Source: Dryococelus australis (lineage: Eukaryota; Arthropoda; Insecta; Phasmatodea; Phasmatidae). Taken from it: a stretch of 64,000 nt of DNA. Shown here in pieces: positions 16,680-52,855 of this stretch. A model generated the notes under the pieces. It ran no database searches, was not told the origin of the DNA, and was given only the letters and a program-made list of their open reading frames with translations. The translations under genes were made by a program, and so were the position numbers. The stretch covers positions 288,062,966 to 288,126,965 of the forward strand of contig CM057009.1 in assembly GCA_029891345.1 (NCBI GenBank), read 5' to 3'. Position 1 is the stretch's first letter; every line of letters starts with the position of its first letter.

Positions 16680-19590
16680 TATTAATAATATTTAATTTCA
16701 AACTCGTTTTTAAATATACTACTGGTATATACTTTTTAATATTTTAGTGAAATCTTCCTATAATTTTAGATATTAATAAATATAACCTCAATCAATCTTA
16801 CTTTTAAATTAAATAATAAATAAATATGATTAACTTAGAATTCTGAATATCTAAATATATACAAATACTTTTTAAGATTCTGAAGAATATGCAAACAATC
16901 ATTATTACGCAAATCAATTACATTAATTTTCTATAAATAACTTATTTTATAAATATTTAACCAATAAACTAAGGGTTTTTAATTCTCCTTTAACATGCAG
17001 ATAAATTTTTATGTTAGAACAAAACCAAAATTAATTTTAAAAATTAATGTATGGTCTTTAAGTCATATTTGTTCTCCGGACATATAGACAAATAGACATA
17101 TAGATAAAAATAGTTTTATAAAATGTTTTGTTGATGTTTGATTTTTAAAATAAATTTCCTACCAAATTAATGTGTTATTCTCTCACAAAATTTTTTAATA
17201 AACGTTAGCATTCTGAAATTTTACACAATTAAAAAAGTTTCCTATATTTTTTAAAATCTAAAAGTTCATCTTGTAGATAAAATTTGTGATGATTGTACTG
17301 AATTTCTTATATGTTTTGTCATGTAAAAAATACATTTTTATATTTGTTACCACATTTTTTAAAAATTAATTTAAAAATTGTTTAAATAAAATGTATTTAT
17401 CCCCATAATGTTTACATTTTTTTGCATGGTATTTTCACTAACGGAATTAAAGTGTAGTATTTTAATATTACATTGGATTATTTTTATTTTATATGATATT
17501 TCAATTGTGTATTTATTAAAGAATTACACAGGAAGTATTTAACGTTTATATTAACATTAAATACAAAAGTTTTGGTTTTATAGTGCTTTTAAATAAAGGA
17601 AAATTCTTTACAATGTGAGGAGATTTTTTAAAGTTATTCTTGAACAATTTCAAGAACTCAAGGTCAACACCGAGGAGAATTTCGAAATGACATAATTTTT
17701 AAAATGTTAAATACTTTTTACATATAATTGCAATGAAAAATTTGTTTTATTGGCCTGTTTTCATTTATAAGTATTTTTGTTAGTGATTTTTTTACAAAAA
17801 TAATGCGGTTTGATTTGTTTTCTCAGGAATTTTCTTAAATTTTCTTCTACTTAGGAATGATACCTTTCACTGATCTTTTTTTTTTTACCAGCGTACAGCT
17901 TATTAAGCACATTTTGGAACTATGGCCTAGTTTTGGTAACAGCATTTTCAAATAAATTTTTCGTGTTTTGACAACATTGACTATTAGATTGAATAAATGC
18001 TTGCTTAAAAAGCAGCCATAACTATTGTAGGAATATTCTATACAAGTATGTAAAAGAGTGACACTAAAAATGAAGGCTTCAAACAAGAACTTTTACTTTC
18101 ATTTAGTCGGCAGGGATTCAGCTTTAGCTGTCATTGAACGAAAACCAATTTTTTTACAGTGCCTAACAATTTTCACATGAGGTATCCCTTCATTATTATA
18201 CTTACGCGACGGGTAGTAATAGGTATATACTGCTAGTCTTTTGAGCACAAATCACCTGTCTAGCAAGGAAAAGCGAGATGCATATTCTCACATGTTTTGA
18301 AATATTTCCAGGTGAGATTGCAGTGAGTATGGACACTGCTAGTATCACAAATATAATCCACTCGCGAGTATTTACATCTTTTCTAAACCCCTTTTGAAGT
18401 ATAAAAAATTACACCAAAAGGACAATGAAACGCATTCGTGCGCAGTCAGTGCAGTAATCATTGGCATAAGATCTCTTTGTTGCTAGGTGTTACAACCTTC
18501 AAAATTCTCCCTGTTTTATACGTACTAATTACAAAAATTTAATATATTAACTTATAAAAGTATATAATTAAAAGTTAGATTAAATAAAAATAAGTGGTTT
18601 TTATGTTAACACAAGTATAAAGCGATTGCGATACTTGACATAATTATGACACAACCAAGCACGTCATGCATTGGGTGATTTTTTAAAGGTTTGATTAAAT
18701 AAGTGTGAAGAAACAGTGTATAGAGTATAGCTCAGTAAGGAGTTCGTGCATTATAATCTCGTCCCCAAACTGATACAAATATTTTGCAGATATATCAAGG
18801 GACCGACATGTTTTTAGTAACTAAAAATTAATATTTAGTGGGCAAAAAACTTAGTGGTGGCAAGTAACTAATGTTGTGCTTAACGCTACAAAAAATTGGG
18901 TTTAGCTGCGTTGGGGAGACAGCCGCTTGTTTTGCGTGAATACGTCTATGTCGACGCGCTCCGACGCCTTGATGTTATTTATTACGTTCCCTGTATCGCT
19001 TCACTCGATCATATGGGATTGTATGGGTATCACTCGATTGCTTTTGCAATACTCTTTCCAACTATATACGATATCTGCATTTCGACTTGGCTTTTTGACG
19101 AATATAGGCTGAAAATGTGCTAAGTTTTTAAATTTTTTATATTAAACTCATACAATATCACGATAACCAAGCCACACAAATGTTTTTATAGACACAATCG
19201 ATTGATACAATAACATGACGAGAGCTGTCGATTTCCACCTAAACGAGCTTCGCAGCTTCTCCTAGTCAAATGTTATACTACGCGAAAGTTATGAGACGCG
19301 GCGAAACGAACTCAAAATTTCGTTTCTCCCCCACCCCCCCCCCTCCACAATCTAAGGAACTCGTGATGCTACGCAGTTCTCACTCAACGTAACATATTCT
19401 TTGATTCTTTGGCAATCGAGTGGTGTAATTTAATTTTGAATGTAAACAATAGATCAGGAGCTGCAATGCCAAACTGTTAACCCCGATTTTATATTCATCG
19501 GATTTTCTGGATTGCTTCCCAATATGGTCACAAATTTAAAGACGTATTTAAGTCCAAATTTGGCAAGGCGAATCCCAGGAAATCATTTTG
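16680..19590. other. Very AT-rich intron sequence
   Basis: No gene is recognised. The stretch 16,680-17,830 is exceptionally AT-rich. ORFs near 17,847-18,086 and 18,896-19,123 lack conserved motifs. A C-rich run lies at 19,328-19,345. Confidence 0.6.
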
Positions 19591-19596
19591 TGACAT

Positions 19597-20150
19597 TAGA
19601 TGACTATTACAGATCCTAGCGCAACTCAATAATTAGACTAAAATTCAAGCAATTTCAAGCCGAATTCAAATAAGTTTCTAATTTCCTGTAAATCTTCCAA
19701 GTGTAATTCGAAATCAATCAAATTTAAGGTCAAAATCAAAATTAATTTTCGGCTTATGTTCATTCATTGTGAGGTTTTTTTTTAAAGCTTTATTTGCAAA
19801 GTAATTAATCATATTTTTGATGAAATTCCAAGAGTTTTCATACTTTTCTTGTGATATTATTTTTGAGTAATTGATTTAGCTTGCAAATTTAGAGTTAATT
19901 TAGCCTTTTCGAACATAAATTTGGCCTCATTCATTCCTGAGAAGGACACTGATCAAAGAGTGAACGAAGCATGTTTTTAAATGCGCCTTATTGAGAATGA
20001 AGATTTGGGTCAAATTAGCTTGATTTTGGGGGTGAAATTGAAGAGATGAATCATATTTTCTGAAGAAATTGAAAAAAGTTGCTTGAAAGTGATAAATTTT
20101 CTTTAATTTTAGTCTAATTATATTGCGCCAAGATCTGCAATATACATCTA
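19597..20150 (+). mobile_element. MITE family B, left copy (about 554 bp)
   Basis: It has inverted ends of about 40-48 bp: GATCCTAGCGCAACTCAATA near the start and, inverted, TTGCGCCAAGATCTGCAATA ending at CATCTA. Internal GAGAAGGACACTGATCAAAG is shared with the copy at 24,823. The two copies are in the same orientation and directly flank the Polinton relic. Confidence 0.8.
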
Positions 20151-20599
20151 CTTATATAAAAAATGTTTACATAAAAACACAATTGTCCCCTTTAAAAAAA
20201 ATGCTCAAATAAAATTGGCCCAAATTAAGTTAAAAGAAAAAATCTCACTTAGATTTAAAAAAAAAGATTTTTTATTCGATCAATCACTTTAACAATGCAT
20301 CTAAAAAAATGGTATTAAAATATCGAAACAGTTTCTTGTTTCAGTAAAAACATTTATATCCCCCATTTAATAAAATAAAAAAATTATTTGACTTTAGTAA
20401 TCCGTTTTTAAAACACCATATGTTAAATTCCGTTGGCTAATTAAAATATAATTACAAATGGCATTAGCTTCAACAACTATATCAAAATCAACACAAATTT
20501 TTATATTTGTTTTTTGTTTAAGTACAATTGTTTTACTATATAAGCAATCAATAATATACAAAGGTATTCGACCCTAAAATGAATAATAATTGGTTTTAA

Positions 20600-21667
20600 C
20601 ATCAAGTTTAGAACCGGCTTATAATAAAGTAATTATTTCTATATACAGTAGCCAGTGTTGTTTGAGTAATTCGAAAATCGTTATAACCAAGAAACGCTTT
20701 ATCGAAAAAATTCTTGCCAATATTTAGATTCCAATTTTCTTTTGGAATAATTTTATTTCCACCATTTTTAACACAAATATTTTTCGCATTACAATGGTCA
20801 AACATAGAAGCGTGGACATGCTGTACAACAAGATTTTTTCAAATTGTTTGAAACCCTACAACTACATAATCAGGCATGTCAAATTGTAAATTATTAAACT
20901 GATATTTGATATCAAAGTTAAAAACAGCTGTTGCAGTAGGAACTTATTTTACTAAAAATTGCCAACAAACAAAAGTAATAGGTATTTTATGGTTTTTGTG
21001 TTTTTTTTAATTGCAATGGCTGTATTAGTTTGGGCATTCAACAATAGACCACATAATTTATAACATTTGAATAACAATTTTACCCAGATCAGCATAATAT
21101 ATATCTAGTGTACCACCTGCTTTCTTATTTTGAAAGACAAATAAAAAGTTGTTGTGGGATGAATTATGATTAAAAATAATTTTATAACCACCTTCCCAAT
21201 AAATTTCATTGTTATCTCGAATAAAAACCACACAGATATCTCAGTGGATAAATTATTTCATATGGGTTAGCACTATGAGTAGCTTTTACTCGATAATAAT
21301 CATCAACACAAGATAATTCTAAATAATTTTGTTCACCTGGAGATCTTAACAAAGTATTCATCACTGTCGAAGTTATACCCGGATTATCAATAGCCTCAAT
21401 AATATGTCCATGTTTTGAGATTTCTACTCTCGAAAACTGAAAAGGAAAAAAGTTACAACAAACATCAATGCTATCTAACTTATCATAGTTTGCCGTGTTT
21501 CCTTCTTTATCCGTTTTGAGTAATTTATATTGCTCATAAAAATAAGCATCATTTGAAAAAGAAAAGTCATCTCCTATAGGAATACCAAACTCAATTCTAT
21601 TATTGTAAACATTTAAATTCTCATAAAAAAAACCTATGTAACATTTAACCAGCCTATATGTTGGCAT
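20600..21667 (-). pseudogene. Polinton major capsid protein relic
   Basis: The N-terminal part is a 151-codon open frame (21,667-21,212) containing NNRIEFGIPIGDDFSF and NPGITSTVMNTLL, which match the first jelly-roll of Polinton major capsid proteins. After several stops, the second part resumes near 20,900 with DYVVVGFQT and then FDHCNAKNICVK and WNLNIGKNFF (20,805-20,608), a hallmark block of the family (usually FDHC followed by a short loop). Family proteins are about 500-650 residues, so the middle and the far C-terminus are lost or scrambled. Its start codon lies 4 bp from the polymerase fragment on the other strand, marking a deletion junction. Confidence 0.8.
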
Positions 21668-21671
21668 GTCA

Positions 21672-22196
21672 ATTTTAGATGTATCGAAGGAATTGATGTA
21701 TGATTTCCATTATAAAGTGACGTAAGTCAGATATATAGATAAAATTGAATTGTGCTTTCAAGATACAGATAGCTTTATACATATGTATATAATATTTAAA
21801 CAGGTGATTTTTATGAAGACATGAAATCGATATTAGATTAAAAAAATAATGTAAAAAGTTTTAGACAAAATGCATGATGAATGTAATGGTAAAATAATTT
21901 AAGAATTTGTTGGCTTAAGAGCAAAAATGTATGTATATAGAGTTGAGGATAGAGAAAACAAAAGATCAAAAGATGTAAAGAAGTGTATAGTCAATAATTT
22001 AATTACATTTGACGATTATAAAAAATGTGTGTTTGATGAGAAAATTCAATATAGAACAGTGAATTTAATAAGAAGCGAGAAACACAAAATATATGTACTC
22101 TAAATTAATAAAATACCTTGAAGTCATTGCGATAACAAGATAATTATATTACAAAATAAAATATATGCACTGCCATATGGGTATCGAAATCTATAA
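21672..22196 (+). pseudogene. Polinton DNA polymerase B, C-terminal relic
   Basis: The translation begins ILDVSKELMYDFHYK and reaches FQDTDS near 21,760, which corresponds to polymerase motif C (usually YTDTDS). Next come stops and a gap, then EFVGLRAKMYVYRVEDRENK, DDYKKCVFD, VNLIRSEKH and a closing LPYGY. This order and spacing are those of the protein-primed family B polymerase of Polintons. The exonuclease domain and motifs A and B are absent. In-frame stops, including one in NKIP, show that it is dead. Confidence 0.82.
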
Positions 22197-22384
22197 TTTT
22201 ATAAATGTGAGGTGGTATCTGTTTTGGATACCAAATATTTCTGAAAGAAAAGTTTTATATTTTATGCACTTATTAAGAGATCTATAGCACAGACCCTATT
22301 GATATTTTCTAATAAAATCTAACCCCATCTTGTAGACAGGGTTTTAAATTTCCAAGCTAGTTTTGTCTTCAAATTTCAAACTTC

Positions 22385-23086
22385 TTTAATCTTCAAAACA
22401 ATGTTATATCAGCTCCATCAAAATTAATTAATTTACCGTTTTGTCTCTAATTTCAAAAACTATGTGATTAAACCACTCATTATTTATTTTATAGAAAATT
22501 GGATATGGGAGCTCATAGCTAATGTAATCTCCAAAACCAAGCATAGTTTTTGGGGGAAAACTAGCAATTATATAAATTTCTAAATGGTTAGATTCGTCAT
22601 ACTTTATGAACATACTATATGCCAAGTTACAATAAACATTTATTGTTTTAATTGGATTAGAATTAAGCAGTTTAGTACTGGTGCTTCTTTTGTATTTTTC
22701 AATAGTCATATTTCCTTCAAAACCAAGAATATCAGATAAGTGATCTTCAAGTTTAATAATAAACTTAGTTTTAATCATTATTCTATTTTTTACACTGCCT
22801 TCTGTTATTTCAATGCTTTTTGTTGAAAATGGATCGAATGAATTTATAGTTTGCTTTAAAGTATCAAAATTGTATTGACCTTGGGAATGGTTATAACTTT
22901 GTTTTTATCAACTATGGTACTCATTTTTTTGATTGTAATTATAGTGTTATTGCTTATATTTGGTGTTAAAAATGTTACATCAAAAATAATTAATAATATA
23001 GATTTATCTATTTGAATTATATCATAGTGAAGTTTCTTATTAAGAATAGAATTATTATATGTTAACTTGAATACTTTATTCTCCAT
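22385..23086 (-). pseudogene. Polinton minor capsid (penton-like) protein relic
   Basis: Three successive frames read as one protein: an N-terminal ORF (23,086-22,856, MENKVFKLTYNNSILNKKLH), a bridging segment with QYNFDTLKQTINSF, and the ORF 22,778-22,428 with INVYCNLAYSMFIKYDESN and YELPYPIFYKINN, closing after a frameshift with LINFDGADITL. The ending is typical of Polinton minor capsid proteins (a single jelly-roll). At least two frameshifts are present. It sits between the polymerase fragment and the ATPase. Confidence 0.7.
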
Positions 23087-23109
23087 TTATTGCAAATTTT
23101 ATGTTATTA

Positions 23110-23730
23110 AATGAGTAAAGTCGGTTAGGGTGTTGGTGTTTTAATTTCTGAAGGAGATGCTAAAAAAATGGTGAACTTTTGCCTGATGATATTAGAGGTA
23201 TAGTTATAGACCCGAGCAATTGTGGGAAGATAAATTTGATTTATAAGACAGATTGGTTAAATTTGAATAAGAAACTAATGTGTGTTCAAAAATTTTGAAT
23301 CAACCCAAATATATTCAGTTACAATATGAACTTGATGTGGTATCCAGCAAATTTTAATGAAAATATGGCATACTCTTTAATAATCCTGAGGAAATGATTC
23401 CACTAGACCAATGTGAAAGCAAGTCCATAGTTATTATTGATGATGTAATTTTAGATGAACAAAATGTAGTCCGTTAGTAATTTACTAGATATCGGCATAA
23501 AAATAATGTTGTAATTTATCTTGCACAAACATATTCCAGAGGTCCCAAACAATTGATACGATACAGTGCAAATTTTCTATTTATATTTGACAAGGTGACA
23601 CAAACCTCAAGCATCTATATTGCGATTTTGTTGGTGGCGACATGTCATATGAGAAATTGAAAGAAATTTGTCCAAAATTCTGGAATATAGATTATGGTTT
23701 TTTAACATTATATTAGAGTAGATAAATGGA
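23110..23730 (+). pseudogene. Polinton packaging ATPase relic
   Basis: The remnants occur in order: SEGDAKKMV, a Walker A-like DPSNCGKINLIY (canonical GxxxxGKT/S, so the terminal Thr/Ser is lost), IVIIDDVILDEQN (Walker B), VIYLAQTYSRGPKQLIRYSA, and GGDMSYEKLKEICPKFWNID followed by YGFLT. This is the A32/FtsK-HerA-like genome-packaging ATPase. Several frame changes and stops break it. The element's right inverted repeat lies about 1 kb further on. Confidence 0.8.
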
Positions 23731-24778
23731 GAGTGGTAAGTACAGAAACCAGATTCAATATTTTTTAATATAAAATTTTGCCTAGTGTATCATTTTGAAT
23801 ACACTTAAAACATTATATTGTTTAAAACTGTTTTCAATAACTCAGATGTTTGTAAATAAGTTTTAACTGTTTCAAAATATTCACATCTTTTTTAAGCACG
23901 TGTTTTTCTTATCTACTTCGATGACTGCTGCACACACTCATAGCAATATTACAAAGTTTATCAGTACACTCGTGCATGCCCAACCACAGCAAACTCTGTC
24001 TGCAACAGGAAGCATGTTATCACACAACTGAGCTGATATCTACTCCAGCTGCTGGGAACTCACACTGAGCATGATAACAGACATAAGTTCACCACATCCC
24101 TCCACAAGATGCAGTAAAATTGTTGCCTTGCTCGCTCGACCACTCCGGCTCAGTGGTTGCATGCTTGTCTTGTAACTCGAAATTCGGGGTTCGACCCCGC
24201 CAGTTGAGAAAATAATTTAATGATGCGTATATGTGGTGTCCATATTTGTTTTGTTAAATTATCACCAAGACATTCTAAATTAGGGGAAAAAAACATTTTA
24301 TTGCTCTTGCTCATATATTCTGTATAGGAGTATTGACACAAAGAAATGGTACTTGAATCTCCAACCAAAAATTCTCTCTATGCTATACTGTAGTATATCA
24401 TATGTATAGGGTGGAGTGATTCATATAGTGGAAGGCGCCCCACTATATGAATCGGGAGTACCATAAAAATAACAAATAAAAAAATCCTCTCTTAACAATT
24501 TAAAAATTATAAAAATAGGCCATCCAGTGGAGAAGTAAGGGGTTTCTCCAATTTGAGTTTTGTTGGTGCTTAATATGGCTGGAAAAGTTAAAAAGATTGA
24601 GTCACTGGAATTGGCATTAACTTGCTCGTAAACTCAAAAAATAAACAGGTCCCTGGCATTGGCATTACCTTGCTCGCAAATCGTTTATAGTTTTTAAGAA
24701 GGTTGATCAAGAGGATAAACATTTACCCACATAGAATTCTGAGAAGTGCTGAATTATTATCAAGATATTGATTTTTCA
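23731..24778 (+). other. Polinton relic right interior with tRNA-like segment
   Basis: No gene is seen. A tRNA-like stretch at 24,142-24,215 (GGCTCAGTGGTTGCATGCTT, then GGGGTTCGACCCCGCC) looks like a third SINE head type inserted here. A short internal duplication (CCTGGCATTGGCATTACCTTG against GGAATTGGCATTAACTTG) occurs at 24,608-24,672. Confidence 0.5.
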
Positions 24779-24822
24779 AAAGGGGTAATTGTGTTTATAT
24801 GTAAACTTTTTTTAAAATTCAG

Positions 24823-25380
24823 TAGATGTATATTGCAGATCCTAGCGCAACTCAATAATTTGACTAAAATTCAAAGAATTTAAAGCCAAATTCAAGCAAA
24901 TTTTTATTTTCCTGTAAAATCTTTCAAAGCGCAACTCAAAATCAATCAAATTTAAGGTAAAAATCAAAATCAATTTTCAACTTGTGTTCACTCTTTGTGA
25001 GGGGTTCTTTACAGTCTTATTTGCAAGCGAAAGCATCATATTTTTGTTGACATTCCAAGAATTTTTATACTTTTCTTGTGAATTTTTTGGCTAATGGATT
25101 TGGCTTACAAATTTAGCATAAATTTAGCCTTTTTCGACCAAAATTTAGCCTCATTCACTCCCGAGAAGGACACTGATCAAAGAGTGAATGAGGCATGTTT
25201 TTATGAAAAAGTGTGCCTAATTGAGAATGCAGATTTGGATGAAATTAGCATGATTTTGGGAGCGAAATTGATGAGATGAATCATGTTTTCATAAGAAGTT
25301 GAAAAATGTTGCTTGGGAGTGAGAAATTCGATGGAATTTTAGTGAAATTATTTAGTTCCGCCAAGATCTGCAATATACAT
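24823..25380 (+). mobile_element. MITE family B, right copy (about 558 bp)
   Basis: Same orientation and architecture as 19,597-20,150: TAGATGTATATTGCAGATCC at the left and, inverted, CCAAGATCTGCAATATACAT at the right. The internal short plus-strand ORF is not conserved as a protein in the other copy. Confidence 0.8.
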
Positions 25381-25570
25381 ATAATTGTGACTACCATGAA
25401 ACATATTTTTTAGTGTGGGGGTAAGACAGGATTTTCTGCAATAAGCTAACTTCTCCTTTTGTATGTGGACTTCCCACGTTCTCACTTCGCGTCTTTTATG
25501 GCGTTAGTAAACTTGGCGAAAGCACTGGAATATCATTTGTTTTTGAGATGTGATTAGTAAGTGTGTGATA

Positions 25571-25931
25571 GTCATAGACTATAGTTGAGGTAGACCAATA
25601 TCCGTGTCCTAACCTTGAACTGCTTGTCCAGCAATACGCCTTATCCAAACGGCGTGAATTATATTTGAGTTTATAAAACTGTTTAGTAAACAAGTGCTTT
25701 GATTGTTTGTATAATTCCGGCCACTAAATTGTAATGCAATTTCGGGAAGTTCAAAACGGCGAATGTATTTTATTGATGTAAAATTTCTTGTCATTGAAAA
25801 CTAAGATTTAAAGAAACACGTTCATCAGTGTTGACCATCTGACATTGACATTTTTGTTCCTTTGGGGAAGGTCAATGTAAGGTACGTGTGCAGAAGACGA
25901 ATAAGCAGTCTACCCCATATTTAGTCTATGG
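25571..25931. mobile_element. MITE family C (TAGACC ends), about 360 bp
   Basis: The inverted ends are CATAGACTATAGTTGAGGTA and, inverted, CATAGACTAAATATGGGGTA, each followed by GACC or GACT. Internal GTTGACCATCTGAC and GCAGAAGACGAATAAGC are shared with elements at 44,880, 52,475 and 52,900. It is non-coding. Confidence 0.7.
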
Positions 25932-27694
25932 TGGGAGTGTTTGATGCATTCGACTCCTGGTATCTTTAACTAGTTCCTCGCACATCTGTGTATTCGCATT
26001 AGAGAGCCCCGAAGGTGAATAATTTTCGGACTTAGTGAACTAGATCCTCTTCTGAACTGAAGACATCGTGAGCTTGAATAAATTACACGGGCTTTCGCAC
26101 AGACTCCGAGCTGTTGATTAAGGTGTGGATTTGGGAAAGAGGAATAGAAGCGATTTAATAGCTGAGATGTCACGTAAGTGTACATAGGGGCCTTGTTACG
26201 TTCGCTTAATTCACGCACGATGCTAAACAGTTGTTTTTCCGATTATCCGCATAGACACATCAGGGTGCGTCAATTACACGCAAACGAAAATTCCGGCTGA
26301 TCCAGTGCGTTTGCCAGGTGTGGCTAGGAGCTAGATATACTACGTGCCGCTGTGTCTTAAATTCAGTGGTTTCGCAGCATATCTTGAGTTGAAATCTGTC
26401 ATAGAAGTGCTGTGGATGGACAAAATGATAGTCAGTTTCGGGAACTTGTGGGGACAGTAGGAGCATATGTTTTCACACTCTAAACGCGTATCAGTGATAT
26501 CAGCAAGTGAGATTGTAGTAACCGAATATATTTAATATGCCAGTAACGACCGGCAAATCAGATGAATTAAATGTGAATCAGTCACTGAAATTCAGTCCAA
26601 TTCAGCAAGTGTAATAAATTGGCGACTGGTTTAAGGGCTCCGATTGCCCATACAGCGAACAGAGCTTTGAATTTTAGTTGCAAATTTACCATTTAAAAAT
26701 TGTTCAATGTTTCTGAGCGGCGTAATTTTTCTACGAATGATAGTTTGTATATCTATTTCCAAAGCAATGACCATACGATTAAAACATATATCCTCTAAAT
26801 ATATCGCTGTAGCGGCTAACAGACAGAAAATAGGTATAAATGAACATTGTGCCCGAGTGTCAAAACATACATTTCGAAACATCTTGTAAATGAACAACAA
26901 TGCCGAAAGAGATATACGGACGTATCATTAATCACATAACATTACATATCAAGTGCTTATTATCCCGGAAGATTGTTTTGTATTATTGTGAGCGCCAACT
27001 ACCCCAAAGGGAGATGAGACTTGGTATCGGAAATTCGCTAGTGTAGAAGAGTCGCAACTGTGTGTGTAGTGTAGAGGCGTGCAATAATTTTTACGGCGCC
27101 AGAAGTTATGAAAATATCACACTTGTTAGAAATGTTAGGTGGTGCTATACCTAATTTTGTTCTGATACTTCGTCAATTTGTAGAATGAACGAGTAGTATT
27201 ATATTCATAGAATTAAAAATTTTACATGATCATTGCATGTTTAGCTTCAAAGATAACAGCATTATTTTTCCCGTGAAGCAAGGATCCGTAAAACTAAATG
27301 TATTACTGAAATGAAACACATTAGACGGAAAACATGTCATAAACGGATGAAAATATTATTTCGAAGCAACTACCCTAATACGAAAACAATCTGAGTAAAT
27401 GAAATATCTTTATACAGGTTAGAGACGTGAGGACCAAACTAAGACACAGACCTGTGATCTGTCGGATTCAGAAAAACACGACTGTCACGATTTCAGCAAG
27501 ACTGCAGCAAGACGCCACATCGGGAAATGTCAGTTATACAAACAATGTGATATAATCATGGTTCATGGTTACTTCCAAATTTTCTGGAGCCCTCCTAATT
27601 TATAATGTTAGGCTAATACCTACTTATGTAAACAAAGCTTAACCGAGTCAAGACAATTACATCAAAGCTACAACGCACCGGTTTTTAGCACATA
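25932..27694. other. Intron sequence, no gene recognised
   Basis: Both strands have only short ORFs without motifs. Composition is moderately AT-rich. Nothing supports a gene or a named repeat. Confidence 0.5.
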
Positions 27695-33249: not shown

Positions 33250-34990
33250 TTAATCACTTCGACGTATAATGGAATTCTTAAAGCAAGTAGTGACAGTCAT
33301 CTTCGTCGGCTGCGGGGTTGGAACTGTGCTCGAAACAGCACACATCTCCATGGCATCTGCTTGATCCTCTGGAAGTTGGGCAGGCTCTGTGGTCTCAGCT
33401 ACCTTCCGACGTAGGAGGCATGCGCGTGAACACCTGGTCAGTGTCTCACACAGGCGCCGTTTCAGGAACCACATGACGAGTACCAGACATCCCATCATAA
33501 CGAACCCCACCAAGTAGCGACTGTGGCGTTCGATGTGTTGACTCAGAACCTTTCTATGTTTCAAATCATGAATGTCCGACATGAGATGATTCAACTCTAC
33601 ACCTTCTTCTGTATTTAGCTCTGACAGACTAATATTGAAGTCGGTTTTCATGGATGCAACGAACACTTGTTCACTATTTGTTAATAAGGACTGAACTGGA
33701 GAGAACTTGACGTCATTCACTTTGTATTTTATATGCATTACCTTGTTACTGCGTGATAACAACTGAATTTTCTCATTAATTACCAGAGAACTGCTTACCT
33801 GGGATATGACTCCCTGCGCCGAGATCCACTCCTCCACAACGCATGCTTCACTCTTTTCATAAGGACACATTTTAGTAACTTTCATCTTTCCCGGTACTGA
33901 ATAAATTCAACTATCACCATCTACTGATCTAATGAACACTGGTACGAACGAGTTACCTAGAACTTCTCTTTTACACGTTTTATAATCGTAACCAGGTTGT
34001 GACAATATTACATTCACTAAACGATTCGGAACCTTTATGGAAAACGTCGGGATGTTAACTAGACAAACTATATTATTCCCGCCTTTACATTGACTCATGT
34101 CTGCTTCAAACATTAACTCATAAAACTGCCTGTTCTCTGACAACGCGATATAAGGTGCATGTGGCACTATCTGAATGTATCTCTCTAAATTTCTCTCAAA
34201 CGCGGGAAAAGGGTGAGCTCTATAAATTATGAAATACCTATTCGTGGATCTCAAAGGAAACTCAATTATCAACTGTATACTATCAATTGTAGCAAGTGCA
34301 TGTACCATCGTTACTTCATAATAATTGTAAACCTGATCTAAATCAGTTCCTGCTATCAAAGTCTTGTTCGCGGGTAATTTAAGAGCAATATCTCGAATAA
34401 TTTCTAACAAATTTCTTGGAGGCTATAACGAAGTGGGTAACCTACCAGTCGCTATGATATCCAATGCCACTTTTAATTTTGTTAGCTCTTGGTTATAAGA
34501 CTGAAGTGTTAATTCTAATTCTCTCAGCAAACTACTGTATTTAAGTTCTTCCCCTAAATTGCTAGTCGTTAATCTGTGACTTCTTTCAATTATTAAGGAT
34601 GTTAAATTATTTCAAGCAGTCATGTGTATCAAAGTTTTTATTACTTTCGCTAACTCTTTTGCTAAAGTGCCTACGTACTTCGAGTTTTCTCTACTCTGGC
34701 ATTCATCCCTTTCACAAAAGTTAATTGTTTCTCTACTATATGAATCAATTTTTCTTGTCTCGTCCCCAACTCACTAGTGACTTGGTGAATATAGACATAA
34801 TCATCATTCGTAAGTGTACCGAATAAAAATTTCAGAATACTACCACCTGCATCTATCAAACCTCTCTTTTCGCGAGATGATTTTCTGGGTAATATCAAAG
34901 TTAATTAATTTACTTCCTCCTCTAATTCTGCAACTATTCTATCAAGAACATATATCTCTGAACCTGGTTTTCCGATCTTTTGGTTTCCAG
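33250..34990 (-). pseudogene. Provirus envelope, F-protein-like, fragmented
   Basis: At least four fragments are seen. The most upstream (34,898-34,671) has a basic furin-like REKR site followed directly by a glycine-rich hydrophobic stretch, the arrangement of the fusion peptide in baculovirus F and errantivirus Env proteins. The middle part (34,410-33,907) has paired cysteines of the ectodomain. The last (33,885-33,250) includes YLVGFVMMGCLVLVMWFL, a transmembrane helix, and a basic cytoplasmic tail. Stops and frameshifts in between make it defunct. Confidence 0.78.
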
Positions 34991-35639
34991 AAATCTTCAT
35001 CCCTTTAATTATGTTCAGTTGGTTCCTAAATTCCTTATTAATACTCTCCTATTTTCTTATGGGTATGTCTAGTATTAGTGTCCATCTGTCTCCTGTTATT
35101 ACGACGTCAATTTCTTGGACCAGAATCACGCCAGTGCATATGGTGTGATCATCTGCAATGCAAACCAATATACCTCTTATTTAGTTTTTTGGCATTGAAC
35201 TCGTAGTTATCATCAAATTCTAGGTTACATTATACTCTGAGGCTACGCATCACTTATTTCTGCTTCCTCCTCTTCCACTGACGGGTTTCTTACATTTGAA
35301 TTAAAATTATACCTGACACTATGTTCGCCTACTTTCTCACGAATTTTCCCTTTTAGATAACGCGACGGTTCCCAAATGTTGTTAGTTGCTACATTATCAT
35401 AACACTCACTATCATCGAGGGTGCTGTCATCCCTAGGGCATTCAATACATATTTCCTCTACTTCACCTATTTCTGCTAACTGTTATTTCTGCTAAAATTG
35501 GGCGTGACTTTGAGCCTATTTTTTCTTCAATATTTTACTCACTTGATTCTTTATCACGTTCACTATTGCAAAATTTCTCAACTGTTTCAACTTCATCAAT
35601 AATCCTCTGGGCTTTTTCACTACACGTTGTGTCTCGGCC

Positions 35640-36723
35640 TAGACACGAGTTCCTTGGCTCTATAGAATTTTTTAGACAACTTTAATCTATCACTGTGCAC
35701 AATAACTTTTCTCTTGTCTAATATTACTTCAAATGTGACAGCTCAGTTTTCTCAAAATTTTATAAGTTCCACCCCAAAACTAATGAAACTTAGATACTCT
35801 GCCTTTCTTAACACTTGGCGTGTGTAGATACACGTAATCACTTACCTCAATATCTGGTGATTTTGACTTCTTGTCATAACACTCTTTTTGTCTCTCAAAA
35901 GCTACTTTATTCCTTTCGCTATCTACTTCATGTGCTTCTTTTAACTTATTACTCAATATTTATACATGTTCCTTGGCTGTCATACCTCCCTCTAACACAT
36001 TATGCTGACTATTCAATTCACCTATAGGCGGTAGCCTAACTTCTTTCCTATACAATAAATAATGTGGGCTATTACCCGTCACTGAATGTGGAACCGTCCT
36101 ATATGCGTGCACTGCATATGGCAAATATTCTTCCCAATTACTACCGTATTCATCTACGTAATGAGATATCATGTCCGCTAGGGTTCGATGAAGTCTCTCA
36201 ACACGTCCGATACATTGTGGTCTGAAAGGGGTCGTTTGTAACTTCTTAATTTTTAACACTTTGCACGTCTCTAACATCAACCTAGACACCAAATTTCTCC
36301 CTTGATCTGTCAACAGGCTTTGAGGACAACCATAACTTAAAATAATCTGCTGTACAAAATATTTCGCTACTGTCATTCTGTTTCATCGGGAATTGGTATC
36401 GCTTCACAGTACCTTGTGAAATAATCAATAAATATCAACACATATTTATTCCCTTTCTCACTCATCGGTAAGGGGCCTAAAATATCTAGAGATACCAACT
36501 GAAATGGGGAATTTACTTGCGGTAAAGAAACTAACGGTGCTTTCGTCATTTTCATACTTTTTCTCCCAAGACAATCATCGCACCTCACAATATATTCATC
36601 TACATCTTTATTCACTGTTGGCCACCAGTACAAAGATTTGAGGAGGTTTTGAGTTCGCTTCACGCCTTGGTGAGCAGAAAATGGAGTGATATGGTGATGA
36701 CTAATTACTCTGGTCACGAGCAA
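35640..36723 (-). pseudogene. Provirus integrase
   Basis: Two frames (36,723-36,373 and 36,376-35,960) joined by a frameshift cover a zinc-binding HH-CC segment (SAHQGVKRTQNLLKSLYWWP, CDDC), the first catalytic Asp in SLDILGPLP, the second in LTDQGRNLVS and the Glu in GRVERLHRTLADM. A broken C-terminal tail follows to about 35,640. The DDE residues look preserved. It would insert the cDNA copy into host DNA. Confidence 0.85.
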
Positions 36724-36737
36724 CTTTGGAACAACTA

Positions 36738-37382
36738 CTAAAATTTTATCTTCATCTCTTTTGTGTAGGATGATTTCCTATAAATAAAGAAATTTCCCTT
36801 ATCTGCCTTATTAATTATACTTTGGCATGTTTCGTCTTCCCTCTGTTCTTTCGTAATTATTTCTCTAGTTAAATCTTCTGAATTTATCGTATTTACCATT
36901 CGCGACAAACAATCTGCATTCGCGTGTTTCTTGCCCGATTTATGGACTACTTCAAAATCAAACTCTGCTAAACGAAGTGCCCATCGAGTGAGTCTCGAAC
37001 AAGGGTCTTTCAAATTCAATAACCATCTCAATGCAGCATGGTCAGTAATAACGGTAAATCTACGCCCGTACAAATATGCTCTGAACTGTTTTCTGGCAAA
37101 AACTAAAACGCACAACTCTTTTTCTGTTGTACTGTAATTCCTTTCTGCTGAATTTAACTGTCTACTGGCATAGGCGATCGGTTTCTCGTGTCTGTTCCGC
37201 ATCTGAGACAGGACAGCGCCTATGGCATAATTATTAGCATCTGTACTCACAATAAATGGTTGTGAAAAATCTGAATATACAAGAATCGGATATGAAATTA
37301 ATTTTTCTCTTAACATTTTAAAAGCTTCCTCTTGATCTGCTCCCCAAATGAATGGTTCATCTTTCTTAGTTAATTTCGTCAA
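36738..37382 (-). pseudogene. Provirus RNase H domain
   Basis: A 214-codon open frame reads through the connection and RNase H domains: STDANNYAIGAVLSQ, SRQLNSAERNYSTTEKELC and VITDHAALRWLL, with the expected acidic residues, then HANADCLSR. This is standard for Ty3/Gypsy. Its frame is broken before integrase. Confidence 0.85.
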
Positions 37383-37399
37383 TGGTCTTGCAATGTCTG

Positions 37400-38582
37400 C
37401 GAAATTCGGAACAAATTTCCTATAATACTGAAATTAACTAACCACTGAGCGAACTTCTGTCACATTTTTAGGCCTGGGGAGTTCTTTAATTGCTTGTAGA
37501 TTTTTCTGATTTTGTTCCACGCCTTTTGAACTTACAACATGCCCTAATTATTCTACACTATCATGTACAAATGAACACTTACTAGGCTGGGTTCGCAAAT
37601 TGGCTTCCTCTAGTCTTTCCAGTACTTTACTCATGCGCTCGGCATGTTATCTCACAGTACTACTAAATATTATAATGTCATTAAGGTATACTAAACACTG
37701 ATCACCTAACAAGCCTGTTAGAACATAATTCACCATTAACCTCTCAAATGTAGCTGGGGCATTACACAGTCCAAGCGGGAGTCTATTAGATTCATATTTC
37801 CCAATCAATGTAGCAAAACTCGTTTTCTCCCTATCACTTTCTTCTAACTCAATTTGGAAGTAGCCACTCGCTAAGACTAATGTTGAAAAATATTTCGACC
37901 AGTGCAAGGAAACTAACGTCTCCGTGGCATTCCGAATAGGATAAGGATCCTGTTTTGTAACTTTATTTAACTGACGGAAATCAATACAAAATCTCTTCTT
38001 AAAAGATCCGTCTTTATTAATCTGTTTCACCATCACTACAGGAAACTGCCAATGTGATTTTCTCTCTGAAATAATATTTTTATCAAGCATGTCATTTATT
38101 TGCTCTGCAATTACCGGTTTCAATGCATGCAGTACTCTATATATACTCTGCTTTATTGGTCTGGCCTCTCCTGTACCTATCTTATGTTTCAATAATTTTG
38201 TGCACCCGAAATTCAAACTCTTTTCCACTTGAAATATATACGTAAACTGCATTAACACTGGGAACATTATATTAAAATCACTCTTACTCAAATGTATCAG
38301 TTTATCTCTAACAATTTTCTCTACCTCTATAAATTCATCTTTTGGTAGTTCTGGTAACATTTTACCCTTTTGCTCCACTGCTTCACTATTTTTTGCCGTG
38401 TGAGTTTCACAACTCTGACTACCTTGAGTCTGTACATAATTCGGCTCATTTATTCTCATTTTACGCGAACTATCTAACATCGGTATCGATTTATCATTTA
38501 CGCACGTATTTTTAAAGTTAACTTCTCTATTTCTCCTAATTTTCACATTACTCTGACATCTCAAATTATCTCGACACTTCAA
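37400..38582 (-). pseudogene. Provirus reverse transcriptase with altered catalytic motifs
   Basis: The conserved blocks RFCIDFRQLNKVTKQDPYPI, SGYFQIELEE, SFATLIGKYE and RLPLGLCNAPATFERLM identify a Ty3/Gypsy RT. Motif A reads TLVLASGYF where the family has an aspartate after TL, and motif C reads YLNDIIIFS where the family has two adjacent aspartates. Two of the three metal-binding aspartates are therefore replaced. The frame ends at a stop at 37,647 and continues with stops (CSFVHDSVE, LGHVVSSKG, YYRKFVPNFADIARPL) to about 37,400. It is non-functional as read. Confidence 0.88.
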
Positions 38583-38607
38583 CGTTTTATCATCACATAT
38601 CAGACTT

Positions 38608-39633
38608 TTACGACAGGATCGGGGTTTTCATTTGGAATCGGAACTGCCTCTGCTCGACATACACTCGGCGGATTTTGGGGAGACAGCGACAAAATCTGTC
38701 CTGTTCCGTGACCTCGCTAATTAATTCACTCACTTTATGGCTAACACAACTCGAGGAGATTACTGCTTCGGATCCTGGAAGCGAACACTTTTTATCTTTG
38801 TTTCTAGGGACATCTGCGAGGATTTTCTCCCGTGGTTCTATTTGTGGCAACACTAAATCACTTTGTTCCGACCAAAGACTTATACAACTTCTCTCGGATG
38901 TTCGGGGTACGCTATTTACGCATAGTACTCCAGCAACGTCACTGACAAGTGTGGCAAATCCTATTACCGTACCCTTTGGCACGACGAGCGTCTCATTAGT
39001 AATGTTCACGATTTTTGTCACTGCCCTTACTGGTTTTACTAACGCTCTGTGAGGTTTCCTTGTACCTTCACTGTGAGGTTTCCTTGATTCCTCAAATAAC
39101 ACTTGACCTACCCTGTCAGTAGTCCTCTCGACATGACCGCCTACTTCACATGTCGCTCCTACATCTTCCACACGACTAGGACTCCATGTCCTCTTGCCCC
39201 CTTTTATGTGATTGCTATGAGGAACTAAACACTGGGACGCACCCCTTTGATCCGAAACAAAGGCGATATTACACTGGTCACTCACCCTCATAAGTGCCTT
39301 ATTTTCAACTACACAGGTACCCTGATGGTCGTTCACCCCATCCTCAAGATTCGTCTCACTGAATCTATTACACGTCCCTATAGAATTTGTAGCCATATTG
39401 CTCCTACAACACACCTCGTTCACTGAGAGGCTCTTACCAGTAAGAATTAAGTTACATATTTCCCTTGCCGCATGGATGCCCGGTACATTCGTCAATGTCA
39501 GTTCGATAAGAAGCAATTTCGAGTCAGTGTCCCAACCCACCATGTGCAAAGCAACATCTATCACTGTCTCCGATTTTGGTGGCAGAATCGTGTGCTGTGT
39601 CATTTTCACTTCATTGTATTGATTACCGTTCAC
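38608..39633 (-). pseudogene. Provirus protease-RT spacer
   Basis: An open frame of 341 codons lies between the protease and reverse transcriptase. It contains VNITNETLVVPKGTVIGFAT, typical of the region after the protease in Ty3/Gypsy polyproteins. A frame change of the kind caused by small indels separates it from the RT frame at about 38,600. It includes an internal short duplication (RKPHSEGTRKPHR). Confidence 0.7.
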
Positions 39634-39687
39634 AGATCTGGATACAAGTTCATAGTTGGCCAGGCCCTCAGCATGTTTCCGCTGTTC

Positions 39688-39747
39688 TTTCTCAATTATG
39701 CAAGTTATTGAATTATATGTATTTCAATAACTTGCATAATTGAGAAA
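39688..39747. repeat. Perfect 25-bp hairpin in pol
   Basis: TTTCTCAATTATGCAAGTTA (first 20 of 25 bases) at 39,688-39,712 is repeated in exact inverse at 39,723-39,747, around a 10-base spacer. It interrupts the protease-spacer reading frame with stops. Confidence 0.95.
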
Positions 39748-50808: not shown

Positions 50809-51742
50809 TATACTAATCGGTCACCGACAGTGAAGATAAATGGCCATTGAACCTCGCAATGTACCGGACCGGCCAAAAATAATTTTCCTGTGCAACATAT
50901 ACACAGTTGTGTACACTGGGTCTGAAAGGGTTTAATATCTTAGTAATAATTTATTACGGTTATAGGTATGTCGCTTTGCCTTGACTACCTTGGTTTTTTT
51001 TAATAATGTCTCCGAAAATTAAGTAACGGAGTAAATTCATAAATACCAATTGACAAGGACACTTCCCCCTTAAGGTGATATTTCTCTTTTTGTTTCTTTT
51101 TTAATTTGGTTATCTGAGAGAGGTTTAGAAACGTGCTCCATTAATGCAGTTGTTAGTTGTCAAATCATTATAGTATTCACAATATGACACTCAAATTCTG
51201 ACACAACTGTGTTATAGAGAGGTCCAGAGTGTTGCATTTGTGTTACAAGCTACAAAAGGAACAAAAACAACTTTTCCTCTACAGTTTACGGTTTAAACTA
51301 TTTATTAAATGAATTTTCACAGTTTCGCTTGAATTAACAAAAACATGTTTACGACAAGTCTGACTCCTATTTTAAAAAGAATTCAAAGTGCCAATACTCG
51401 CTCACCTGTGTATAAATCGCAGTCATACTGAAACAATATGTTCTCCACACCATACATACAGATTGCATTAAATGCAATTTGACTGGAAAAATATATCTAG
51501 GAGCGAAGTCTTGTGTGCTCCAAAAATCGGGAAATTAAGAATTTTGAGTGTTATATTTTGAAAACTATAATGATTTGATAAATAATAACTGCATTAAGGA
51601 GGAACATTTCTAAATCTCTTTCAGATAAGTGAAAGAAAAAAAGTGAAATATCAGGTTAAGCATGCAGGTAGGCAGACGATGCTCCCTGGGCGGCGGCTGC
51701 TGCCAGAGGAGAGGTTTGCAAAGACGCGGAGGGGGAACTCAC
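50809..51742. other. sif intron between MITE and RBD exon donor
   Basis: AT-rich, no gene is recognised; the GC-rich rise from about 51,680 is exon-adjacent sequence on the intron side of the donor. Confidence 0.5.
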
Positions 51743-51913
51743 ATAGGTGTCGATCTGGTCGGTGCGGTGAGGGACGAAGTAGTTGTGGTCCTCCATGTCG
51801 CGCCTCTTTTTCACTCGCACAAAGTGCTCCATGGGGTTGAGGTTGCGGCGCGCGCAGGCGCTCACCAGGAACTCCTCCACCGACATGGCGTCGCGCAGGT
51901 ACACGTGCGCCGT
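51743..51913 (-). CDS. sif: still life (sif/TIAM) exon: Ras-binding domain
   Basis: This exon encodes 57 residues beginning [15 protein letters not shown] and ending TDQIDTY. The sequence matches the Raf-like Ras-binding domain of insect still life, a TIAM-family Rac exchange factor that acts at synaptic and cortical membranes. The acceptor (TTGTTGCAG then ACG) and donor (CACCTAT then GTGAGT) are canonical, and both boundaries are phase 0, so the exon is 171 bp. GC content is far above the flanks. The next exon, at 47,962, begins in phase 0 and continues the domain. Only about 30 bp of intron separates the acceptor from a MITE. Family identity rests on recalled conservation of this block; splice sites and phase are read directly. 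Confidence 0.9.
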
Positions 51914-51945
51914 CTGCAACAACGCACAAGCGACAAGCTCCTGAA

Positions 51946-52362
51946 GGCTGTTCGCGATTAAGCAAGCACTGTTGAAATCAACCTTAGAAAAAGTAACTGC
52001 CCCGGCCTGCATACATTTTAATTGGCGCACTGAGTGGCATACGCCCAGTAAAGTTGATAACGATGGAAGGGAAGTAGTTCCGTATATTAACGTCGAATAA
52101 AAAGTGCTAGGTAACCATTTATGATAACTTAAATTATTTCTTTCGTTTCACGTATTTTTAAATGAATAGAAGGGTAAAAATTAGCAGATTTGTAAAATAT
52201 TTACTTTTATAATAATTTCACTGTTTCACTTGACCGACACATGAATAAAGTGATGAGGCTCATGACAATGTTTATCTTACATAAGGTTGAATAATACACA
52301 ACGTACATGCAAGTAGATCTTAAGCAAGGCTTTCAAAAGTGCTCACTTTACCGTGAATAGCC
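51946..52362. mobile_element. MITE family A copy next to sif acceptor
   Basis: Ends GGCTGTTCGCGATTAAGCAA and, inverted, CTTTACCGTGAATAGCC. It is a full long-form copy in opposite orientation to 14,159. Its left edge is about 30 bp from the first base of the RBD exon at 51,913. Confidence 0.88.
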
Positions 52363-52474
52363 TATACTTCGTGCGCTCTAAGTGGCCGTGAACGAGGACC
52401 TTTGTGCCATACACCATAACCTGGACACCTACGTTGGTCGTAGTCGATTCCGAGGATATAGGACGCTTTTTCAC

Positions 52475-52855
52475 CATATATTATAGATGGGGTAGACCGC
52501 TTACTCGTCTTCTGCTCATCTACCCAACATCGACCTACCCCACTCATACACCACTGTCGAAGTCACGTTTGTTTATATCTTAATTTTTAAATGACGAACG
52601 CTATTATATTAATAAAATACTTTTACCAATTTGAATTTAGTCAAACTATATTACGTATTACTAAGTGGACGTATAATAACACCACTAAGCACTTGTTTAC
52701 AAATCAGTTTTCTAACCTAAAAACCAAACCATGCCGTTCTCGATAGATGTGTTGACAGAAAAGAAGTTCAAGGTTGGAACATTGAATGTTGGTTGTACGC
52801 AGCCAGAGAGATCGGTCTACCTCATCTTAAGTGTATGTTTTTCACACCCTCCGCT
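52475..52855. mobile_element. MITE family C copy
   Basis: Left end CATATATTATAGATGGGGTA then GACCG; right end, inverted, TACACTTAAGATGAGGTAGA then CCG. Internal TGCTCATCTACCCAACATCG is reverse to the 25.8 kb copy. Confidence 0.65.

Follow-up and report, generated by a model that had tools for sequence, protein, structure and literature searches.

A Polinton-type element of Dryococelus australis that inserts together with two direct end modules

We describe a family of mobile elements in the phasmatid Dryococelus australis, starting from one copy in a 64,000-nucleotide stretch of contig CM057009.1 (assembly GCA_029891345.1, positions 288,062,966 to 288,126,965 of the forward strand; the whole stretch is called the window). 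In this copy a Polinton-like core is framed by two same-orientation copies, M1 and M2, of a module of about 560 bp (M in general), which has the traits of a miniature inverted-repeat transposable element (MITE): it is short and non-coding, with inverted arms, a target duplication and many copies. The arrangement M-core-M inserts as one unit and does not result from two chance insertions. The family joins 6-bp target-site duplications with direct end modules and is a variant of the Polinton/Maverick kind, and M-core-M is probably a single mobile Polinton-type unit, whose tips would be recognised by an integrase and which would replicate through a circle or concatemer.

M1 and M2 are 82.2% identical across 572 alignment columns, each has its own inverted arms of about 60-85 bp, and neither holds a frame of at least 80 codons in the list of open reading frames of the window, where no third copy of M was found. 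Between the modules, the inner arm of each M and the adjoining core end form one continuous inverted repeat (Table 1), and the core ends aligned without the modules are identical at 50 of 57 paired bases, plus gaps. A perfect 6-bp duplication, TGTGAC, stands exactly at the outer borders of the unit, with 5,791 bp between its two copies, whereas the flanks of M1 and of M2 taken singly do not match. An earlier sequence-only reading of the window had proposed a Polinton relic between two MITE copies of the same orientation, whose termini merge with the Polinton inverted ends on both sides, and the direct-repeat alignment and the continuous inner repeat agree with it on both points. Its MITE edges were placed approximately right, but a few bases off as judged from the tips of copies elsewhere in the genome. 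It had suggested a search for duplications around the outer pair or the inner element; those that it missed surround the outer pair.

A search of the 3.415-Gb assembly of the window with M1 brought up 2,443 first-look candidates; the best 40 received a score, and 30 of these, with M1 among them, were fetched; the fetched copies are those most like M1, and their proportions are not genome proportions. Most of them have the tips AGTAGATG...CATCTACT, and some outer tips, including the window's, are ATTA. The other 29 fetched modules have the core on their right side in 12 cases, on their left side in 8 and on neither in 9 (no core match of at least 70 bp within 1.4 kb), and by script label none of the 20 core-joined modules is inverted. 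The left core end, used without M as a 112-bp query, gave 179 candidates (best 40 scored; 20 of the 39 places outside the window fetched), and M-arm sequence follows it in 20 of 20. According to arm scores, M has the usual orientation at 16 of these left ends, three are near ties that slightly favour the reverse, and one is clearly reversed. For the right core end there were 129 candidates (best 40 scored); the unbiased sampling covers left ends. First-look candidates numbered 2,326-2,612 for M queries, as against 179 for the left and 129 for the right core tip; these figures are not copy numbers, and the core-tip queries, being short, are less sensitive. By coordinates, M matches adjoining a listed core tip lie on the same strand in 13 of 13 cases, and so do left and right core tips paired within 25 kb in 8 of 8, the cores between them measuring 4.7 to 19.6 kb. 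From M to M, the elements C2:72.2 and C12 span 19,046 bp and 17,985 bp.

Target-site duplications, with registers set by eye at the tips, were viewed in ten paired elements, eight of which were resolved; C2:136.0 and C3:353.97 were left out, as a tip lay outside the fetched stretch. The outer duplication is matched at 6 of 6 bases in six of the eight (the window, C2:72.2, C1:287.9, C4:157.2, C14:44.0 and C3:1.97) and at only 4 of 6 in C12 and C2:99.1. Nine solo modules gave 6 of 6 in two cases and 5 of 6 in six, and L057 is without a tip. All duplications pooled, 86 of 96 bases match, compared with a mean of 31.4 and a maximum of 58 in 20,000 shuffles, and a 6 of 6 match occurs in 0 of 240 cross pairs. 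A duplication of their own was sought at 18 of the 20 core-joined modules, with 3 of 6 as the best result. Since core-joined modules have no duplication of their own and the outer pair has one, it was the outer pair that inserted, and not the single M.

The sequence-only reading had held a chance double insertion to be unlikely, and this stands, as the same junctions recur genome-wide and the joined modules lack their own duplication. Solitary MITE copies throughout, together with Polintons ending in unrelated repeats, would have spoken for coincidence; the genome search that it proposed showed instead 20 of 29 other fetched modules attached, with like orientation, to the ends of this same core, and 20 of 20 left ends running into an M arm. 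Both of the origins it offered, an extended Polinton terminus or a cassette carried by MITE ends, fit a recurring M-core-M unit with a 6-bp duplication and a solo M. It had also proposed to look for Polinton genes inside paired copies; in the family, broken frames match rve and double-jelly-roll models.

The kinship of the modules was examined in a set of 31 (465 pairs) and in a tree with ultrafast bootstrap (UFboot) values. Ranks 1 and 2 of 465 in excess kinship are held by the two modules of C2:72.2 (z -5.2, UFboot 97) and those of C12 (z -3.6, UFboot 85), and copying of both modules from one template, as for long terminal repeats (LTRs), is supported in these two of the four elements examined. 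It is unsupported in the window and in C4:157.2, a result that could also come from decay or from a short shared branch. For the rest the tree is star-like, with solo modules intermingled with core-joined ones, and holds no left and right subfamilies of M. LTR retrotransposons have direct terminal repeats and solo LTRs, and they resemble this family in their direct ends, their solo copies and the kin pairs of two elements; they differ in that the tips here are AGTAGATG, each repeat has inverted arms and the genes are of Polinton type.

The copy in the window has suffered an internal deletion, and all its genes are decayed. The deletion follows from other copies, where the two parts of its core, 1.47 kb on the left and 3.2 kb on the right, stand far apart; several paired copies have cores of 15 to 18 kb, and by this measure about 10 to 13 kb has been lost. 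Insertion may have come before or after the deletion, with the perfect 6-bp duplication kept.

For the gene content of the family, we scanned all 77 stop-to-stop frames of at least 110 codons in the core parts of 20 long stretches from family copies. Domain models were matched by Bro-N (4 frames), Phospholip_A2_4 (4), DJR-like_dom (3), rve (2), Rho_N (2), Peptidase_M10 (2), zf-MYST (2), PIF1 (1), Pox_A32 (1) and others; the rve and double-jelly-roll matches are in broken frames, and part of the matches may stem from nested elements. The best E-value was 3.8e-8 for the rve integrase, of which the window copy has none, and 6.4e-8 for DJR-like_dom, the double-jelly-roll major capsid. The families listed for these 77 frames at E <= 0.01 include neither a reverse transcriptase nor a tyrosine recombinase. 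The Bro-N frames lie within copies L062, L069 and L077, and Bro-N is a gene type known in large DNA viruses.

Within the window core, the decayed frames next to the deletion junction, which gave no Pfam match, may be a polymerase C-terminus, and the 158-codon frame is a putative minor capsid gene. The homologues of the packaging-ATPase-like frames match weakly (ATPase_2 in L073, E 4e-4; Pox_A32 in L066, E 0.0076), and neither match reaches the curated cut-off. A tRNA-like stretch towards the right core end contains what we take to be A- and B-box-like sequence, and ARAGORN called no tRNA in it; the family may carry this stretch, or it may be an old short interspersed element (SINE). Comparison of the window frames with Pfam, PDB sequences, phage records, viral contigs and a protein database gave nothing useful, an Rfam scan of the window gave no match, and two predicted structures were of unusable quality (mean pLDDT, the predicted local distance difference test, 35.8 and 41.1). 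The tip motif had 28 matches in prokaryote contigs, about chance by estimate, and none in viral contigs. A near-perfect palindrome occupies 24418-24453 in the right part of the core.

Table 1. Features of the M-core-M element in the window (positions count from the first letter of the window).
Feature	Position	Strand	Remark
Left 6-bp target-site duplication, TGTGAC	19589..19594	none	6/6 against right copy
M1, left end module	19595..20152	+	outer tip ATTAGATG, inner tip CATCTACT; tips from genome copies
Left arm of continuous inner inverted repeat	20116..20199	+	M1 right arm and core end
Core, 4,668 bp	20153..24820	+	two parts of a longer Polinton-like element (left ~1.47 kb, right ~3.2 kb) brought together by an internal deletion
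165-codon open frame	21212..21709	-	part left of deletion junction homologous to frames of other copies; no family match
Deletion junction, about 21,618	21610..21625	none	copy comparison; short ATTC microhomology by eye
Decayed frames	21651..22157	+	homologous to L063:4420-5085 and L068:6451-6807; no Pfam match
158-codon open frame	22428..22904	-	homologous to L073:3268-3699 and L066:3040-3396
Decayed packaging-ATPase-like frames	23071..23677	+	homologues L073:2597-3001 and L066:2199-2579
tRNA-like stretch near right end of core	24120..24225	+	common to L063, L073, L076 and L077 at 81-84%
Right arm of continuous inner inverted repeat	24772..24860	-	core end and M2 left arm
M2, right end module	24821..25385	+	inner tip AGTAGATG, outer tip CATATAAT; repeat alignment, genome copies
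Right 6-bp target-site duplication, TGTGAC	25386..25391	none	6/6 against left copy

In regards to known systems, for which the cited papers are used in excerpt, Maverick ends have AGT-type tips, (AGT)2//(ACT)2 in vertebrates, together with 6-bp duplications and inverted repeats (PMC8097293). The present family resembles Polintons/Mavericks in its 6-bp duplication, AGT-type tips, rve and double-jelly-roll frames and a length of 18.0-19.0 kb from M to M in two copies. However, the ends described for Polintons are simple inverted repeats, whereas here they are direct modules of about 560 bp, each with both tips and also found solo, and only the outer arms of about 60-85 bp are mutually inverted in place of the long inverted end repeats of a Polinton. 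The excerpt of PMC12747079 describes Polinton-like viruses (PLVs) with direct repeats as rare; those of Tyrannomonas are found solely together with a tyrosine recombinase, an enzyme that by the same account does not typically duplicate its target. Tyrannomonas PLV-56 and PLV-78 are similar in being virus-like elements with direct terminal repeats, and they differ by that recombinase: here a 6-bp duplication surrounds the outer pair, and no such enzyme is listed for the 77 frames. The nearest analogue in logic is found in the pseudo-compound transposons and translocatable units of IS26 and the IS6 family, as excerpted from PMC7986276: their direct end modules also occur solo, and a circle with one module would explain the arrangement, but there the transposase lies inside the module, and M1 and M2 have no frame of at least 80 codons. 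Teratorn, a piggyBac-herpesvirus fusion, is likewise a virus-like genome moved by transposon ends, with unrelated ends and cargo and with direct end modules unmentioned in the excerpt of PMC10175614. A literature search of titles and abstract openings, with most subscription papers outside it, found no Polinton ended by direct MITE copies.

How a single mobile unit could give rise to both arrangements is suggested by the tips. Every M has a left and a right tip, the outermost tips read 5'-A[GT]TAGATG and border on the 6-bp target duplication, and solo copies of M have a 6-bp duplication of their own. The family's own rve-type integrase may recognise these tips; the use of both tips of one M would yield a solo module, and the left tip of one M with the right tip of the next would yield M-core-M. 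If the element replicated as a circle or concatemer that holds M once in each unit, this would account for the direct orientation and for the LTR-like kinship in two elements. The core would be immobile without M, because the inner tips point the wrong way. That a Polinton lineage has given up the usual inverted-repeat ends for a portable end module and now multiplies by way of circles or concatemers, one integrase giving rise to LTR-like full elements as well as to a swarm of solo modules, seems to us rather unlikely.

Several observations weigh against the interpretation of M-core-M as such a unit. The modules of the window rank 412 of 465 and show no excess kinship, M1 and M2 are each absent from the other's best 40 scored matches, and the right M of C4:157.2 is absent from the best 40 of its left M. 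The non-pair L033/L043 also reaches z -3.6, which equals the second true pair. The core left end of L081 (C3:353969828-353969918), the sole clear exception in 20, has a reversed M, and the reversed arm scores slightly higher at L087, L088 and L096. A DNA polymerase model matched none of the 77 family frames, and the analysis showed no circles, concatemers or M-core-M-core-M tandems.

It is quite possible, even if we lean the other way, that M was at first a separate non-autonomous MITE of Polinton type, two copies of which framed a core with failed tips, much as in a bacterial composite transposon, and that the composite was then amplified. The two full tips of M, its solo copies with 6-bp duplications, the inverted repeat that the core retains inside the modules, as older ends would, and the window modules without special kinship all fit such a capture. 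However, its origin needs two independent insertions exactly at both core tips, and the excess kinship in two elements is unpredicted unless the modules were later homogenised. We regard it as improbable that M plus core end were ancestrally ordinary long inverted repeats and that one M of a master copy was turned round by recombination between its two inverted arms, which left the modules direct. The arms are indeed mutually inverted, L081 offers a reversed M, and inverted repeats of 46-1,447 bp are usual for Mavericks according to the excerpted PMC8097293; yet reversals appear to be rare (one clear case in 20 left ends, none among the 20 core-joined modules), and a flip alone leaves the complete inner-side tips and the solo existence of M unexplained.

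The solo modules could themselves be remnants of recombination between direct modules, like solo LTRs, and not separate transpositions, which we hold to be possible if somewhat doubtful. Direct modules permit such a deletion, the 6-bp duplication would stay, as is seen, and solo and core-joined modules are mixed in the tree; against this, independent transposition fits the present data equally, and M candidates far outnumber those for the core tips, with the reservation on query length made above. Independent insertion of the same MITE at both tips of one Polinton is hardly conceivable. The four TA junctions at first sight fit nested TA insertions, but the junctions recur genome-wide, the solos have 6-bp and not TA duplications and the joined modules have none of their own. 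Nested insertion of two TA-type MITEs into Polinton tips was likewise rejected, given the 6-bp duplications and the tips AGTAGATG of the solos.

Polintons are described, in the excerpts used here, as linear elements with inverted ends. Long direct end repeats, mobile or left solo, would suggest another form of Polinton replication, as well as a shared-end route between small transposons and virus-like elements, and the passage of animal Polintons through circles or concatemers becomes testable. Repeat annotation may file such end modules as unrelated MITEs.

Elsewhere in the window, a separate dispersed inverted repeat pair lies at 25605-25933 and 52472-52781 (about 67% identical). A decayed Gypsy-type retrotransposon with reverse transcriptase, RNase H and a Baculovirus F-like envelope frame occupies 33250-39723 on the minus strand, and a frame with a Raf-like Ras-binding domain at 51656-52147 probably represents an exon from a signalling gene of the host.

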